Source: Sulfuriflexus mobilis
Lineage (GTDB): Bacteria > Pseudomonadota > Gammaproteobacteria > AKS1
Assembly (NCBI RefSeq): GCF_003967195.1
Contig: NZ_AP018725.1
Span: 806,001-870,000 of the forward strand
Direction of reading: 5' to 3'
Length of the DNA stretch: 64,000 bases
A program made the translations under genes and the position numbers. Numbering within the stretch: the stretch's first letter is position 1; the number at the start of each line of letters is the position of its first letter. Positions 41,145-58,901 of this stretch are shown here, piece after piece. The notes beneath the pieces are model-generated. The model was not told where the DNA came from and did not search any database. It was given only the letters and a program-made list of their open reading frames with translations.

Positions 41145-42170
41145 ATGTCCGTCAACGACTTACTTTCACAGGAAGAGATCGATGCGCTGTTGCATGGCGT
41201 ATCGGGTGGTGATGTTGAAACCGGTGGTGATGTGTCGGCCGATGACGGCTCAATGCGCTCCTATAACTTCGCAGTAGAAGACCGGATTGTCCGTGGTCGT
41301 TTACCGACCCTGGAAATGATTAACGAACGTTTTGCAAGATTATTCCGTGCCAGCCTGTTCAATCTGTTACGCCGTTCTGCCGAGATTTCAGTTGGTGGCG
41401 TGCAGATGATGAAATTTGCTGAATACATACATAGCCTGTTTGTGCCGACCAGCCTGAATCTGGTGAAGATGTCGCCATTACGCGGTACTTCCTTGTTTGT
41501 CCTCGACCCGAAGCTGGTGTTTATCCTGGTAGATAACTTTTTTGGTGGGGCGGGGCGTCATGCCAAGATTGAGGGGCGTGAATTCACCCCGACCGAGCTG
41601 CGCATTGTGCAAATTGTGCTTGCTGATATTTTCAAGAATCTCGAAGCGGCCTGGCGTCCGATATTTGATATCGCGTTTGAATACCAGAGCTCGGAAGTTA
41701 ACCCGCAGTTTGCAAACATCGTCAGCCCGACAGAAGTCGTGGTATTGACCAAGTTCACGATCGAACTGGATGGCGGCGGCGGCGATCTGCACATTACTAT
41801 GCCTTACTCCATGCTTGAGCCCATTCGTGAATTGCTCGATGCCGGTGTGCAAAGTGATCGGTCCGATACCGATATGCGCTGGATTTCCGCCCTGCGTGAT
41901 GAAATTAAAAGCGCCAAAGTCGAAGTCGATTGTCGGCTGACTGAAACTGAACTCAGTGTCCAGGAAATCCTGGATATGAAGGCAGGCGACATTATTCCTA
42001 TTGAGATGCCGGAAACGGTCATTCTGCGTTCAGGTGGCATCCCGATACTACGTGGTATTTACGGTGAGTCGCATGGCAATAAAGCGATTAAGGTCTTCTC
42101 GCCGATTGAAAGGCCTGATAACAAACAACTTGTCGAATTGATTCCTAAGAAGGATATGGCAAATGAATGA
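41145..42170 (+). CDS. fliM: FliM, motor switch protein and CheY-P receptor
   Basis: FliM is the C-ring component that binds CheY-P. The N-terminal CheY-binding peptide is intact (LLSQEEIDALLHGV, residues 5-18). The middle CheC-like domain includes RLPTLEMINERFARLFR and the GGAG motif region (NFFGGAGRHAK); the C-terminal SpoA domain resembles FliN (MKAGDIIPIEMPETVILRSG). 341 residues. It overlaps fliN by 8 nt. Confidence 0.97.
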   Translation: MSVNDLLSQEEIDALLHGVSGGDVETGGDVSADDGSMRSYNFAVEDRIVRGRLPTLEMINERFARLFRASLFNLLRRSAEISVGGVQMMKFAEYIHSLFVPTSLNLVKMSPLRGTSLFVLDPKLVFILVDNFFGGAGRHAKIEGREFTPTELRIVQIVLADIFKNLEAAWRPIFDIAFEYQSSEVNPQFANIVSPTEVVVLTKFTIELDGGGGDLHITMPYSMLEPIRELLDAGVQSDRSDTDMRWISALRDEIKSAKVEVDCRLTETELSVQEILDMKAGDIIPIEMPETVILRSGGIPILRGIYGESHGNKAIKVFSPIERPDNKQLVELIPKKDMANE

Positions 42171-51215: not shown

Positions 51216-51602
51216 TTGGATAAGAATATGAAGATCCTGGTTGTGGATGATTTTTCGACCATGCGTCGCATCATCAAGAACCTGTTGCGGGATCTCGGTT
51301 TTAATAACACCAGCGAGGCCGATGATGGTCAGACTGCGTTGCCCATGCTGCAGTCCGGAAACTTCGATTTTCTGGTGACCGATTGGAATATGCCGGGCAT
51401 GACCGGTATTGAGTTACTCAAGGCCGTGCGTGCTGATGCCAAGCTGTCTTCCTTGCCGGTATTAATGGTTACCGCCGAGCAAAAGCGTGAGCAGATTGTT
51501 GAGGCGGCACAGGCTGGTGTTAATGGTTATATCGTCAAACCGTTCACAGCAGAGGTACTACGCGAAAAGTTGAACAAGATCTTTGAGCGTGTCGACGGCT
51601 AG
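51216..51602 (+). CDS. cheY: CheY response regulator
   Basis: CheY, when phosphorylated by CheA, binds FliM and changes rotation. It is a single receiver domain: acidic pair in [18 protein letters not shown], phospho-acceptor Asp56 in [12 protein letters not shown], Thr in LMVTAEQ and Lys in [12 protein letters not shown] 51216 lies 5 nt after GGGAGG, so I prefer it to ATG 51228, which is 17 nt away; the extra residues MDKN also occur in related proteins. 128 residues. Confidence 0.96.
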
Positions 51603-51618: not shown

Positions 51619-52374
51619 ATGGAAGAACAGAACGAACAAAAAGAACTGAGCGAATTTTATCTGAGCAAGGTGCAGTCTCTACTTAGTGAAGTCGAAGCGG
51701 GAAATACCCAGGCGGCGGACCGGATTATTGAGGAATTGGCACGTGAGCGTGATAAGAACATGTTTCAGGAAATCGGTAAACTCACCCGCGAGTTACACGA
51801 GGCCCTGAACGGTTTTCGCCTTGATGCAGAGCTAACTGAACTGGCCGGTAAGGACATTCCCGATGCTCGCGAGCGCTTGCAATATGTTATTACGATGACT
51901 GAGCAATCGGCCAATAAGACATTGAATGCGGTAGAAGAATCGATTCCGCTTTGTGACCAGCTGGAGGCGCGCAGCAAGGATGTCCATGATCGCTGGCAAC
52001 GTTTTATGCGTCGGGAGATGGAACCTGATGAGTTTCGTGAGATGTGCAAGGAAATTGATGATGTACTCGAGAAACAGCACGAAGGTTCAGCACAGCTAAA
52101 GTCAGCATTGACTGAAATACTGATGGCGCAGGACTTTCAGGATATTACCGGGCAGATCATCAGCCGGGTCATCACGCTGGTATCTGATCTGGAAAACAGT
52201 CTCGTCAAACTGATTAAAGAAAGTGGCGCTCTGCTTGCTGACGGTGAGGCTATAGAACAATCCAAGAGTGGTCGCGACAGTCTCGATGGTCCTCAGGTGC
52301 CGGGACTTGTCAGCGAAGGGGCGGTATCCGGGCAGGATGAAGTCGATGACCTGCTTTCCAGTCTTGGTTTTTAA
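51619..52374 (+). CDS. cheZ: CheZ, CheY-P phosphatase
   Basis: CheZ removes phosphate from CheY-P. It is a long helical hairpin with the catalytic region EILMAQDFQDITGQIISRVI, containing the Asp and Gln that act on CheY-P, and the CheY-binding tail QDEVDDLLSSLGF at the very C-terminus. 251 residues from ATG 51619, which has GGAG 7 nt upstream; the longer reading frame starts inside cheY. Confidence 0.96.
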   Translation: MEEQNEQKELSEFYLSKVQSLLSEVEAGNTQAADRIIEELARERDKNMFQEIGKLTRELHEALNGFRLDAELTELAGKDIPDARERLQYVITMTEQSANKTLNAVEESIPLCDQLEARSKDVHDRWQRFMRREMEPDEFREMCKEIDDVLEKQHEGSAQLKSALTEILMAQDFQDITGQIISRVITLVSDLENSLVKLIKESGALLADGEAIEQSKSGRDSLDGPQVPGLVSEGAVSGQDEVDDLLSSLGF

Positions 52375-52395: not shown

Positions 52396-54408
52396 ATGTC
52401 TTTTGATGCCGATGACGAAATTTTACAGGATTTTCTTGTTGAGGCAGGTGAGATCCTGGAGCAGCTCGGTGGTCAGCTAGTCGATCTTGAGCAGAGCAGC
52501 GGTGATTCCGATCTGCTGAATGCTGTATTTCGTGGTTTCCATACAATTAAGGGCGGCGCCAGTTTCCTGAGTCTGGAGCCGCTGGTGCAACTCTGTCACC
52601 GTGCCGAGGATGTCTTCAATGCCTTGCGTAATGGTGAGCGCAGTGTCGATGCACAACTCATGGACATCATCCTGCCGGTTCTGGACAGCCTTAATGATAT
52701 GTTTGATCGGCTCAAGGCGGGCGAATATCCCCCGGATGCCGACCCGGCGCAACTACAGGCCCTTGATGCCCTGCTGCAGGGCGATAGCGCCCCGGCAGCA
52801 GCGGAACCGGTTGCCGTGTCAGCCGATGCCGCCGATGATGAATTTGAGGCCATACTGGAAGCGGCCCAGGATAAACCGGCTGCCGTTGCCGATACCCCAG
52901 CGGCCACTAGCTCAGACGAGATCAGCGATGATGAATTTGAGGCCTTGCTCGACGAACTGCATGGCAAGGGCCAGTTTAGTGCTGTACCAGATGCACCAGA
53001 GGCCAAGGTCGAGGCACCGAAGCCCACGGGTGACATGATTAGCGACGATGAGTTTGAGGCCTTGCTCGACGAATTGCATGGACAAAAGGCTGCCCCCGGT
53101 GCCAAGCCGGATGCCCCGGAAGTGGCTGCCGCCGAGCCAGCAGCGGCCAAACCTGCAGAGAAGGCCCCGCCACCTGAGGCGGTGGCAGAAAAACCGGCCG
53201 CCAAGCCGGCTGCCGCGCGCGAGGCCGCAGCACCGCAAGGCGAAACCACGGTACGTGTCGACACCAAGCGCCTCGATGACATCATGAATCTGGTGGGAGA
53301 ACTCGTGCTGGTGCGTAATCGTTTGTCGACACTACAGAGTACAGTAGAGAATGAACATGTCTCTTCTGCCGTCGCAAACCTCGATGTGGTGACGGCAGAC
53401 CTGCAAAATGCGGTAATGAAGACCCGTATGCAGCCTATCAAAAAGGTATTTGGTCGCTTCCCGCGTGTGGTACGTGACCTGGCACGCGCGCTTAATAAAG
53501 AGATCGTCCTTGAAATGGAAGGCGAAGACACAGACCTCGACAAGAACCTGGTTGAGGCCCTGGCCGATCCCCTCGTGCATCTGGTACGTAACGCGGTTGA
53601 CCACGGTATTGAAATGCCGGATGCGCGTGAGACTGCGGGCAAGTCACGTGCCGGCACCGTGTTATTAAAGGCCTCTCAGGAAGGTGATCATATTGAATTG
53701 ACCATTGCCGATGACGGCGGCGGTATGGACCCGGATAAGCTGCGCGGCATTGCCGTGTCCAAGGGGCTCATGGATACCGATGCCGCCGGGCGTCTGTCAG
53801 ATCATGAATGTTACAACCTGATCTTCGCCCCCGGCTTTTCGACCAAGGAACAAATCTCGGATATCTCTGGCCGTGGTGTGGGCATGGACGTGGTGAAGAC
53901 GCGTATTGTGCAGCTAAACGGCTCGGTGGAGATCGACTCCAAGCTGGGTGAGGGTAGCAGCCTGGTTATCAAGGTACCGTTGACCCTGGCGATCATGCCA
54001 ACACTGATGGTAGTACTGGGCGAACAGGCCTTTGCCTTGCCGCTGGTGAATGTCTGCGAGATCTTTGACCTGGACCTGAGCAAGACCAATATCGTCGATG
54101 GCCAGCAGGTTGTGGTCGTCCGCGACAAGCCGTTACCACTTTATTATCTGAGTGAGTGGCTGGTTGAAGGACGTAGTCGGGCCGATCGCAAGACTAATGG
54201 CCATGTTGTGATCGTCGGTGTCGGTACCCAGCGTGTTGGTTTTGTTGTCGATGAACTACTGGGTCAGGAAGAAGTAGTGATTAAACCGCTGGGCAAGATG
54301 ATCCAGGGTACGGATGGGCTGGCCGGTGCAACCATTACCGGTGATGGCAATATCGCACTGATCCTCGATGTGCCGGGCCTGTTAAAAGCCTATGCACGAA
54401 AATATTAA
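52396..54408 (+). CDS. cheA: CheA chemotaxis histidine kinase with repeated linker motif
   Basis: CheA phosphorylates CheY and CheB. P1 (1-105) has His49 in GFHTIKGGASF. P3 dimerisation starts near residue 288 (LDDIMNLVGELVLVRNRL), P4 kinase includes LVRNAVDHGIE and FSTKEQISDISGRGVGMDVV, and P5 ends the 670 residues. Between P1 and P3 an Ala/Pro/Glu-rich linker of about 160 residues carries ADDEFEAILEA once and SDDEFEALLDELHG twice. No folded P2 is obvious. The motif may be the array-localisation segment known from CheA proteins encoded with ParC/ParP, or a CheY-binding mimic. Confidence 0.96.
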   Translation: MSFDADDEILQDFLVEAGEILEQLGGQLVDLEQSSGDSDLLNAVFRGFHTIKGGASFLSLEPLVQLCHRAEDVFNALRNGERSVDAQLMDIILPVLDSLNDMFDRLKAGEYPPDADPAQLQALDALLQGDSAPAAAEPVAVSADAADDEFEAILEAAQDKPAAVADTPAATSSDEISDDEFEALLDELHGKGQFSAVPDAPEAKVEAPKPTGDMISDDEFEALLDELHGQKAAPGAKPDAPEVAAAEPAAAKPAEKAPPPEAVAEKPAAKPAAAREAAAPQGETTVRVDTKRLDDIMNLVGELVLVRNRLSTLQSTVENEHVSSAVANLDVVTADLQNAVMKTRMQPIKKVFGRFPRVVRDLARALNKEIVLEMEGEDTDLDKNLVEALADPLVHLVRNAVDHGIEMPDARETAGKSRAGTVLLKASQEGDHIELTIADDGGGMDPDKLRGIAVSKGLMDTDAAGRLSDHECYNLIFAPGFSTKEQISDISGRGVGMDVVKTRIVQLNGSVEIDSKLGEGSSLVIKVPLTLAIMPTLMVVLGEQAFALPLVNVCEIFDLDLSKTNIVDGQQVVVVRDKPLPLYYLSEWLVEGRSRADRKTNGHVVIVGVGTQRVGFVVDELLGQEEVVIKPLGKMIQGTDGLAGATITGDGNIALILDVPGLLKAYARKY

Positions 54409-56233: not shown

Positions 56234-57394
56234 ATGGCCAGAAAACAAAAACATGAGGAGCACGAGAACCACGAGCGTTGGCTGGTGTCTTATGCCGATT
56301 TTATAACGCTGTTGTTTGCGTTTTTTGTAGTGATGTATTCCATTTCTTCGGTGAACGACGGCAAGTATCGGGTGCTTTCTGATACCCTGGTAGCGGCCTT
56401 CAAAGACACCGGTCGTCGTATGGACCCGATTCAGATCGGTACGCCTTCGAAGATGCTTAACCCATTGAGCCATGGTGTGATCAGCCCGCGAGTCAGTGAA
56501 AGACCTCAGGCGGCCATTCAACAGGTGCAGAATGCCGCCGGCCAATCGGAAACCGGCAGTGGTCGGCCGGACGTTACCGGGGCCACTGCCGGTTCAACCC
56601 ATCTGCAGACCACGCCAGGCAGGGGTGGGCCACAAGAATCACTGGATGCCCTGAGTGAAGAAGTGCAGAACAATATGGCCTCAGTGATTGATCAGAGCAT
56701 GATGACCCTGCGGCGTCACAAGGATGCGCTGGAGATCGAACTCAAGTCGAATATCCTGTTCTCGCGGGGTCGGGCCCGCCTGTCTATCCCTGCCGAAAAG
56801 ATTTTGATCCGTCTTGCCTCGACCCTGGCAAAATTTCCCAACGCGGTACAGATCGAAGGGCACACCGATGACAAGTTTTACAGTTCGGGTCTGTACCCGA
56901 GTAACTGGGAATTGTCTTCAGCACGTGCTGCCGCTGTTGCCCACTTGTTTACCGAACACGGCATGGACCCGGAGCTGATGTGGGCCGTAGGTTATGGTGA
57001 GTATCGTCCGAAGGTAGAGAACCTTAATGATGAAATGCGCGGTCAGAACCGTCGTGTCGTACTCATGATCCGCCCGAACTTGTCGGGCCTTAAAAAGGCC
57101 GATACGGCGCAGACCGATGCGAGTGTATTGAATAATGCCTCAACCACAGCGGACCCCGGGGCGGAGACCAAGGCGGGGGAATTGAACCGACTAAGCCAAC
57201 CGATGCTGGAAAAGGCCGCCGGGACGGAGACCGAGGTCGAGGAGTTGAATACAGAGTCCCAGCCGATGCTGGAAAAGGCCACTGAGCCGTCAAGCGAGAC
57301 AACACCCCTGCAAGGTACACCGGTCGAGCCGGTGATCGCGCCGATTCAGTTACCCTTCCCCGTACGTCCGGCGATAGGCGGGAACGGGCAATGA
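56234..57394 (+). CDS. motD: MotD, MotB-like stator subunit with OmpA domain
   Basis: MotD anchors the stator to peptidoglycan. A short basic N-terminus precedes the TM helix with the proton-carrying Asp in YADFITLLFAFFVVMYSIS. The OmpA-like domain (about 165-275) has IEGHTDDKFYSSG, NWELSSARAAAVAHL and GQNRRVVLMI. The C-terminal extension (about 280-386) is acidic and Pro/Thr-rich and holds a 21-residue unit repeated twice (ends in SQPMLEKA). It overlaps parC by 4 nt. Confidence 0.93.
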   Translation: MARKQKHEEHENHERWLVSYADFITLLFAFFVVMYSISSVNDGKYRVLSDTLVAAFKDTGRRMDPIQIGTPSKMLNPLSHGVISPRVSERPQAAIQQVQNAAGQSETGSGRPDVTGATAGSTHLQTTPGRGGPQESLDALSEEVQNNMASVIDQSMMTLRRHKDALEIELKSNILFSRGRARLSIPAEKILIRLASTLAKFPNAVQIEGHTDDKFYSSGLYPSNWELSSARAAAVAHLFTEHGMDPELMWAVGYGEYRPKVENLNDEMRGQNRRVVLMIRPNLSGLKKADTAQTDASVLNNASTTADPGAETKAGELNRLSQPMLEKAAGTETEVEELNTESQPMLEKATEPSSETTPLQGTPVEPVIAPIQLPFPVRPAIGGNGQ

Positions 57395-58191
57395 AGGTCT
57401 GGGCCATCGCCAATCAGAAGGGTGGGGTAGGCAAGACCACCACCGCGGTGAGCCTGGCCGGGCTCCTGTCGCAGGCTGGCCACCGTACCCTGCTCATGGA
57501 TGCCGACCCGCACGGTTCGATGAGTGTGTATTTCGGCAATGACCCGGATACCACCCCGGGCGGCCTGTATCAGCTGTTTCATGACTTTGACACCTTAAGT
57601 ACACAGTCTGTGCGCAATATTATTTTGCGCAGTAATTATGACAATATCGATATTATGCCCGCCTCCAGTTCGATGGCCGCACTGGATCGACAAATGGGTA
57701 CGCGTAGTGGCATGGGACTGGTATTCAGCAAGGCCCTGGGCCTGATCGATGAAGATTATGATTTTGTCTTGATCGATTGTCCGCCCTTGCTGGGTATCCT
57801 GATGGTGAATGCGCTGGCCGTTTGTGATGAACTGCTGGTGCCGGTACAAACTGAATTCCTTGCCCTTAAGGGGCTTGAGCGTATTGTGCATACCCTGCAT
57901 ATGATCATGCAGTCACGTAATGAGATTTTGCATTACACTGTGGTGCCGACACTGTATGACCGACGGACCAATGCCTCGCGTGGGGCGCTGGAGGCCTTGC
58001 AGGAACAATACCCGGAAACACTGTGGCCGGGTGTGATCCCGGTGGATACCCAGTTCCGTGAGGCCAGTCGCGTCGGCGCGCCGTTGTCGATGATGCTACC
58101 GGAATCACGTGGTGCGCTGGCCTACAGCAAGCTGCTGGAATACCTGCTTGCAGACAACCGCGCCGTTTCACAGTCGGTGGTGAACTCATGA
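57391..58191 (+). CDS. parC: ParC, ParA-like ATPase for polar chemotaxis arrays
   Basis: This is a MinD/ParA-type ATPase of the ParC subgroup, which positions chemoreceptor arrays at the pole in Vibrio and Pseudomonas and is always near parP and cheW. It has Walker A IANQKGGVGKTTTAVSLAG, the LLMDADPHGS switch and FVLIDCPPLLG. 266 residues. ATGA-type overlaps with motD and parP indicate tight cotranscription. Confidence 0.9.
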   Translation: MKVWAIANQKGGVGKTTTAVSLAGLLSQAGHRTLLMDADPHGSMSVYFGNDPDTTPGGLYQLFHDFDTLSTQSVRNIILRSNYDNIDIMPASSSMAALDRQMGTRSGMGLVFSKALGLIDEDYDFVLIDCPPLLGILMVNALAVCDELLVPVQTEFLALKGLERIVHTLHMIMQSRNEILHYTVVPTLYDRRTNASRGALEALQEQYPETLWPGVIPVDTQFREASRVGAPLSMMLPESRGALAYSKLLEYLLADNRAVSQSVVNS

Positions 58192-58901
58192 ATACACGCA
58201 CAGAGGCCGATAAAAAGCTTATCGGGCTGGTAGAGCCCAACGAGGTATTGACGGATTACCTGAATGCCTTGCTGGGTGAAGTAGAGACCCGGGAGGCCCT
58301 CGAACCGGCGACAGAGGTCGTCACTGAAACGATCGCCGAGCCGCTGCTGCCCGAACCTGAGATAGCCGAGGCAGAACACCACATCCCTGAACAGCTTGAG
58401 GTGAATAGCGGGACAGATGGGCAGTTAGCGACCCGCGTCGAGGCACCATCGGCTAAGGCTGATTTCCAGATACTGCTCTTTCATGTGGCCGGGATTACCC
58501 TGGCGGTACCACTGGATAAACTGGATGGTATTCTGGAGTGGAATGAAGAGGTCACGCCGATGCCCAACCGATCGCCATGGTTTCTTGGCTTGCTGCCTGA
58601 ACGTGGTAACCAGATCAAGATCATCGACACGGCGATGCTGGTGGTGCCGGAAAAATTTCGGGTTAATCACCGTCGTGAAGATATGCAAAAGATCATCCTC
58701 ATCGGCGATGGGCAATGGGGGCTGGCCTGTGATGGGGTCTCCGAGGTGGTCACCCTCAGCCATGATCAGGTCCGATGGCGGGGTGAGGGTGGTACACGTC
58801 CCTGGTTGGCGGGCACGGTTGTCGAGCAGATGTGCGCCCTCCTGGATATAGAGCAATTTGTTGAGCTATTGAGTTCGGAAAAACTGGAGCCTGCCAGCTA
58901 G
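58188..58901 (+). CDS. parP: ParP, CheW-like array positioning protein
   Basis: The 237-residue product has a variable acidic N-terminal region that includes VEPNEVLTDYLNALLGEVE and a C-terminal CheW-like domain (about 95-230, FHVAGITLAVPLDKLDGILE and LLPERGNQIKIIDTAMLVV). In known systems ParP binds ParC, CheA and receptors and keeps arrays at the pole. The parC-parP-cheW order supports the name; by sequence alone it could be called a divergent CheW. Confidence 0.88.
   Translation: MNTRTEADKKLIGLVEPNEVLTDYLNALLGEVETREALEPATEVVTETIAEPLLPEPEIAEAEHHIPEQLEVNSGTDGQLATRVEAPSAKADFQILLFHVAGITLAVPLDKLDGILEWNEEVTPMPNRSPWFLGLLPERGNQIKIIDTAMLVVPEKFRVNHRREDMQKIILIGDGQWGLACDGVSEVVTLSHDQVRWRGEGGTRPWLAGTVVEQMCALLDIEQFVELLSSEKLEPAS

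Follow-up and report, generated by a model that had tools for sequence, protein, structure and literature searches.

More than half of all CheA homologs do without a P2 domain and have an unstructured region there instead, and the CheA survey by Berry et al. views P2 as dispensable (PMC10542144). A further CheA segment, the LID (localization and inheritance domain), was described directly before P3, as bound by ParP and as confined to CheAs that go together with ParC and ParP (PMC5706961; PMC7534058). On the side of the motor, FliM grips phosphorylated CheY via an EIDALL motif (PMC9126983). One face of CheY is common to FliM and CheZ, as discussed for VcCheY3, a CheY of a similar cluster (PMC3774744), and that paper cites Zhu et al. 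1997 for an overlap of the CheZ-, CheA- and FliM-binding surfaces.

Here, we analysed the flagellar CheA of Sulfuriflexus mobilis, which is encoded in a window of 64,000 nucleotides (contig NZ_AP018725.1, positions 806,001 to 870,000). The gene order of its flagellar locus is fliA-cheY-cheZ-cheA-cheB-motC-motD-parC-parP-cheW. In the linker between P1 and P3 we found a short tandem motif that is real, old within the Gammaproteobacteria and under strong constraint at the protein level, and that is probably a peptide replacement for the lost docking domain. The distribution of the motif is well supported; its function is what we infer. The open-access papers that we searched gave no description of it.

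Results and discussion

The cheA gene encodes the following parts:

52396-54408, + strand: cheA, 670 amino acids; P1, disordered linker, P3, P4 and P5, without P2
52417-52719, + strand: P1 (Hpt) domain, residues 8-108 (Pfam PF01627)
52795-53244, + strand: P1-P3 linker, rich in Ala, Pro and Glu, predicted to be disordered, in the place of P2
53245-54390, + strand: P3 dimerisation, P4 kinase and P5 CheW-like domains, residues 284-665 (Pfam)

Pfam assigned Hpt (residues 8-108), H-kinase_dim (284-343), HATPase_c (391-530) and CheW (537-665). Even at E <= 1, residues 108-284 matched neither a P2 nor any other CheY-binding model. Pfam is insensitive for P2, and the predicted disorder of the linker is thus the stronger argument for its absence. 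No solved structure related to the linker was found. In two single-chain AlphaFold runs, the linker was disordered and had a short helix exactly at each motif copy. The first, sequence-only reading of this DNA had claimed that CheA lacks an obvious P2 and had named a folded P2 in predictions as evidence against its idea; neither Pfam nor AlphaFold revealed a detectable sequence or fold of this kind between P1 and P3, and the claim holds. The S. mobilis protein thus resembles the P2-less CheAs of Berry et al. in the unstructured region that replaces P2; their survey mentions no linear motif in that place (PMC10542144). With the P2 of E. coli CheA it has in common the location between P1 and P3 and the proposed job, but the E. 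coli P2 is a folded domain, whereas S. mobilis CheA has a disordered linker with short helices. A match of the linker to the Pfam model GemA was below the cut-off and was disregarded. The S. mobilis genome has two further CheA-like genes (G000:C1:315750-318746 and 2001544-2003706), of which one is a multi-Hpt, ChpA-like open frame of 1788 aa and the other encodes 877 aa.

A repeat finder detected one family of three in-frame DNA repeats in the linker, at 52822-52871, 52915-52964 and 53032-53081, which correspond to three motif copies:

52822-52872, + strand: motif copy 1, weak, ADAADDEFEAILEAAQD; core present, LHG tail absent
52915-52965, + strand: motif copy 2, DEISDDEFEALLDELHG
53032-53082, + strand: motif copy 3, DMISDDEFEALLDELHG

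One motif peptide of the CheA linker is ISDDEFEALLDELHGKG; the motif has the core I-[ST]-[DE]-[DE]-E-F-[DE]-x-L-L-D and the tail L-[HQ]-G-x-G. The translated linker contains ADDEFEAILEAAQD once and ISDDEFEALLDELHG twice, exactly, so that the repeat noticed in the initial reading was recovered as two in-frame copies and a weaker one. Over the stretch ISDDEFEALLDELHG, four base changes separate copy 2 from copy 3, every one of them synonymous, indicating that the protein sequence was held as the DNA drifted.

This type of CheA was present in 146 of 370 gammaproteobacterial genomes in a class-wide search, and we take this large class of kinases to cover the principal chemotaxis CheAs of Pseudomonas, Vibrio and Shewanella. 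For 136 loci, neighbour genes were identified by profile and the P1-P3 linkers extracted; 133 linkers were readable, that of S. mobilis included. They contain 327 core copies; 500 shuffles that preserved the composition gave 0.67 ± 0.78 and never more than 4. With a slightly widened pattern the motif occurs in 133 of 133 linkers, while the regular expression alone misses two; variants outside the expression are TISDTEFEALLDDLYG in locus L075 and the degenerate LDDDLEAILDQVHG in L143. Each linker has one to eight copies, mostly two or three, at a median spacing of 42 residues, and the last copy lies about 64 residues N-terminal of P3. Outside the motif, only Ala/Pro/Val words are common to the linkers, the most frequent in 24 of 133, and no other conserved element was found among them. 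All 80 named relatives (Alteromonas, Glaciecola, Paraglaciecola, Pseudoalteromonas, Rheinheimera and others) have the motif in two to four copies each. A phylum-wide search yielded no relatives of at least 45% identity over most of the CheA length outside the class. The longest linkers seen, with about 550 residues, are those of L158 (G036) and L019, in which roughly twelve PAKPAA units in tandem come after eight motif copies.

Both this CheA type and a second one co-occur in many genomes. The second type (L160, the second CheA of S. mobilis, and 23 readable relatives) has the motif in 0 of 24 cases, and nearly all 24 have a conserved, folded-looking block of about 90 residues between P1 and P3, with the signature W-x-I-x-F-x-P ... 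G-N-D-P ... L-G-E-L ... S-W ... F-x-W-V-x-D-x-C. Motif and P2-like block are mutually exclusive between the two CheA types. We regard the block as P2 by its position, its conservation and the literature on the class with E. coli CheA, since sequence comparisons gave a weak match or none: Pfam did not recognise the block and thus misses it too, a sequence search found no match among solved structures, and the second-type profile matched E. coli CheA weakly over 27 residues (197-223), where P2 lies. The sequence-only reading had asked whether repeat number tracks the loss of P2 and the presence of parP; for parP, no clear separation was seen, with one to eight copies in ParP-positive and one to four in ParP-less genomes. 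In one genome, a ParC ortholog adjoins the second-type CheA and not the flagellar CheA (G015:C37:9882-10640).

How might a CheA without P2 find CheY? The window encodes the proposed ligand and two peptides with which the motif can be compared:

51216-51602, + strand: cheY, proposed ligand of the motif; NCBIfam PRK10610 above cut-off, ATG likely at 51228
41160-41198, + strand: N-terminal CheY-binding peptide of FliM, LLSQEEIDALLHG
52333-52371, + strand: C-terminal tail of CheZ, QDEVDDLLSSLGF

The C-terminal tail of CheZ belongs to a known class of CheY ligands, and the repeats had been likened to both peptides, whose sequences agree with those given in the first reading. When 140,587 peptide windows (0.46 Mb of the S. 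mobilis genome as background) were queried with the FliM core SQEEIDALL, the CheZ tail ranked 2nd and the two CheA copies tied 5th to 8th. The CheA copies thus come close to a proven ligand in their likeness to FliM, but a handful of unrelated windows match the FliM core as well as the CheA copies do, and a match within a linker of about 150 residues has a chance probability of roughly 1% on its own. With a joint FliM and CheZ matrix or the CheZ matrix alone, the CheA copies were absent from the top 14. Hence, the likeness to FliM stands and that to CheZ less so. As the likeness to FliM is not unique, the argument for CheY is made by resemblance, position and conservation together.

With the EIDALL peptide of FliM, the motif has in common a short acidic amphipathic helix, predicted in the case of CheA, an E-[IF]-[DE]-A-L-L core, a disordered tether and a lead-in that ends in [ST]-[QD]-[DE]. 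The CheA version E-F-E-A-L-L, predicted to be helical, has Phe in place of the Ile of the FliM-type E-[IV]-D-A-L-L; the central residue is thus Phe in CheA, Ile or Val in FliM and Val in CheZ. In contrast to FliM, the motif is arranged in tandem, lies inside the kinase rather than the motor, and has a conserved tail D-x-L-H-G-x-G without a FliM counterpart at the same spacing. The CheZ tail, D-E-V-D-D-L-L-x-x-L, aligns gap-free with D-E-F-E-A-L-L-D-x-L of CheA, but it is C-terminal, single and ends in G-F, and the CheA motif is less similar to it than to FliM. In this type of CheY, the residues that face P2 were altered upon its recruitment to the P2-bearing CheA (PMC7184735). Read from its sequence, S. 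mobilis CheY has the older state at these residues, R and Q.

For structure prediction of CheY and linker in one chain, cheY and cheZ were read on into cheA as a single frame, by means of one four-base step (GGCT) and with Gly in place of stop codons. This fused chain is an artificial reading that joins CheY and the linker and makes no claim that the organism reads so. A second fused chain was taken from L145, where cheY lies directly upstream of cheA. Other loci read likewise served as alignment rows, except for L109, which was left out on account of out-of-frame CheY and CheA in its segment. Block-mean pLDDT was moderate for the motif helices (roughly 51-76) and 67-76 for the CheZ tail. In the two AlphaFold runs, neither the motif nor the CheZ tail as positive control docked confidently on CheY; since confident docking was missing for the positive control too, the prediction neither supports nor refutes binding.

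The locus also encodes the partners of the LID:

57391-58191, + strand: parC, ParA-family ATPase, polar positioning
58188-58901, + strand: parP, N-terminal ParC-binding part, proline-rich linker and C-terminal CheW-like AIF domain

An alignment of ParP proteins (58188-58901 included) showed an N-terminal amphipathic Q-x-x-A-L-x-x-Y-L-x-x-L-L-x-E before the proline-rich linker, which presumably is the ParC-binding element. Eleven genomes with this CheA type have no ParC or ParP ortholog genome-wide, absence of ParC being defined by a best ParA-like match of at most about 150 bits (true ParC at least 190 bits) and absence of ParP by nothing above the ordinary CheW level (at most 42 bits). The motif occurs in all ten with a readable linker, which belong to seven families, with a clean core in nine and a degenerate form in one; in the eleventh, the linker is interrupted by an assembly gap. 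All of these loci contain cheY. In three genera of one ParC/ParP-less family (L097 in G265, L106 in G337 and L146 in G177), the core is part of a new and longer repeat, LPEGVDPDG-DITDDEFEALL-x-QR, and the LHG tail is missing from all copies, indicating that the core persisted and was amplified without ParP. No cheZ was found between cheY and cheA in L104 (G157), L109 (G025) and L145 (G092), where cheY directly precedes cheA and CheA nevertheless keeps the motif. Two of these genomes, G025 and G157, also have no ParC/ParP and retain one full copy.

On balance we slightly favour the explanation that the tandem short linear motifs dock CheY instead of P2. Each copy would fold into a short amphipathic helix and dock on the alpha4-beta5-alpha5 face of CheY, the one used by FliM and CheZ; the CheB receiver domain might be docked as well. 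Docking would retain the substrate close to the phospho-histidine of P1, which is the job of the folded P2 in E. coli CheA, and with several copies the local concentration of CheY would rise. In genomes with parC and parP, the L-[HQ]-G-x-G tail, mostly of the two copies nearest P3, may serve as the LID or overlap with it. We infer CheY binding, avidity and these separate tasks of core and tail; observed are the position and predicted disorder of the motif-bearing linker, the conservation of the motif as its lone conserved element, the exclusion with the P2-like block, and the persistence independent of ParC/ParP. The recruitment of CheY in place of P2, as conjectured in the sequence-only reading, fits the last two in particular, while AlphaFold docking was unconfident.

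If the motif docks CheY, it would give a simple answer, for one large class, to how CheY is selected by the P2-less CheAs that make up more than half of these kinases (PMC10542144). Kinase, phosphatase and motor would then compete for one CheY surface via near-identical peptides, motif number would offer a way of tuning substrate choice, signal termination and motor binding, and single point mutations would suffice to test how the class selects CheY. The motif would also suggest a defined element of 15 residues as candidate LID. The full combination, in which FliM-mimicking tandem motifs replace P2 for CheY throughout the gammaproteobacterial flagellar CheA class and the linker doubles as ParP anchor, may apply, although in our estimate it falls a little short of an even call.

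But, could the repeats simply be the LID, held by the AIF domain of ParP and unrelated to CheY? The locus contains parC and parP, and the literature sets the LID before P3 and only in ParC/ParP CheAs (PMC5706961; PMC7534058). Compared by description, the LID of Vibrio CheA resembles the motif in its site before P3 and in a CheA encoded with parC/parP. The motif is the sole conserved element in ParC-linked CheA linkers, so the LID, if it lies in the linker, must overlap with it, and the LHG tail is present in 194 of 261 copies in ParC-linked loci compared to 7 of 18 in ParP-less loci. However, with a single count per family this difference is no more than borderline (P = 0.05-0.22, depending on stringency), and a CheA explained in this way would be left without any CheY docking site. 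The ten ParC/ParP-less genomes that keep the motif also set it apart from a LID confined to ParC/ParP genomes; a ParP-binding segment thus cannot be the whole story, and the motif has a function independent of ParP. We therefore consider the LID alone unlikely, and of the ParP-binding segment put forward initially only an additional role may hold, in which the published LID would coincide with the LHG tail or the last two copies. A reading that assigns CheY to the core of each copy, and ParP to the tail or the last two copies, overlaps with our preferred one and would place array anchoring and substrate docking on one linker, where they may compete. The tail occurs in 79-86% of the last two copies and in 43% of the third from the end, and two ParP-less lineages (f53 and f91) lost the tail and kept the core; five other ParP-less lineages retained it, however, and we consider this dual role plausible, though less likely than not.

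Two readings without any partner of chemotaxis fare worse. A short helical oligomerisation module of the SHOCT type (PF09851) matches the multi-copy linker of L147 above the cut-off and that of L108 just under it. The match covers only the second half of the profile, however, and S. mobilis CheA reaches 13.3 bits against a cut-off of 27 bits. SHOCT is typically C-terminal and single, unlike the tandem linker motif, and we regard this origin as very improbable. Still harder to sustain is a neutral low-complexity linker in which the repeat arose by slippage. The Ala/Pro/Glu-rich composition and the variable copy number would fit, but the reading is contradicted by the conservation of the motif, with a core near-invariant across many families in linkers that otherwise have no words in common beyond low complexity, and by the purely synonymous differences between copies 2 and 3. 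The partial SHOCT matches of the L147 and L108 linkers could mislead automatic annotation.
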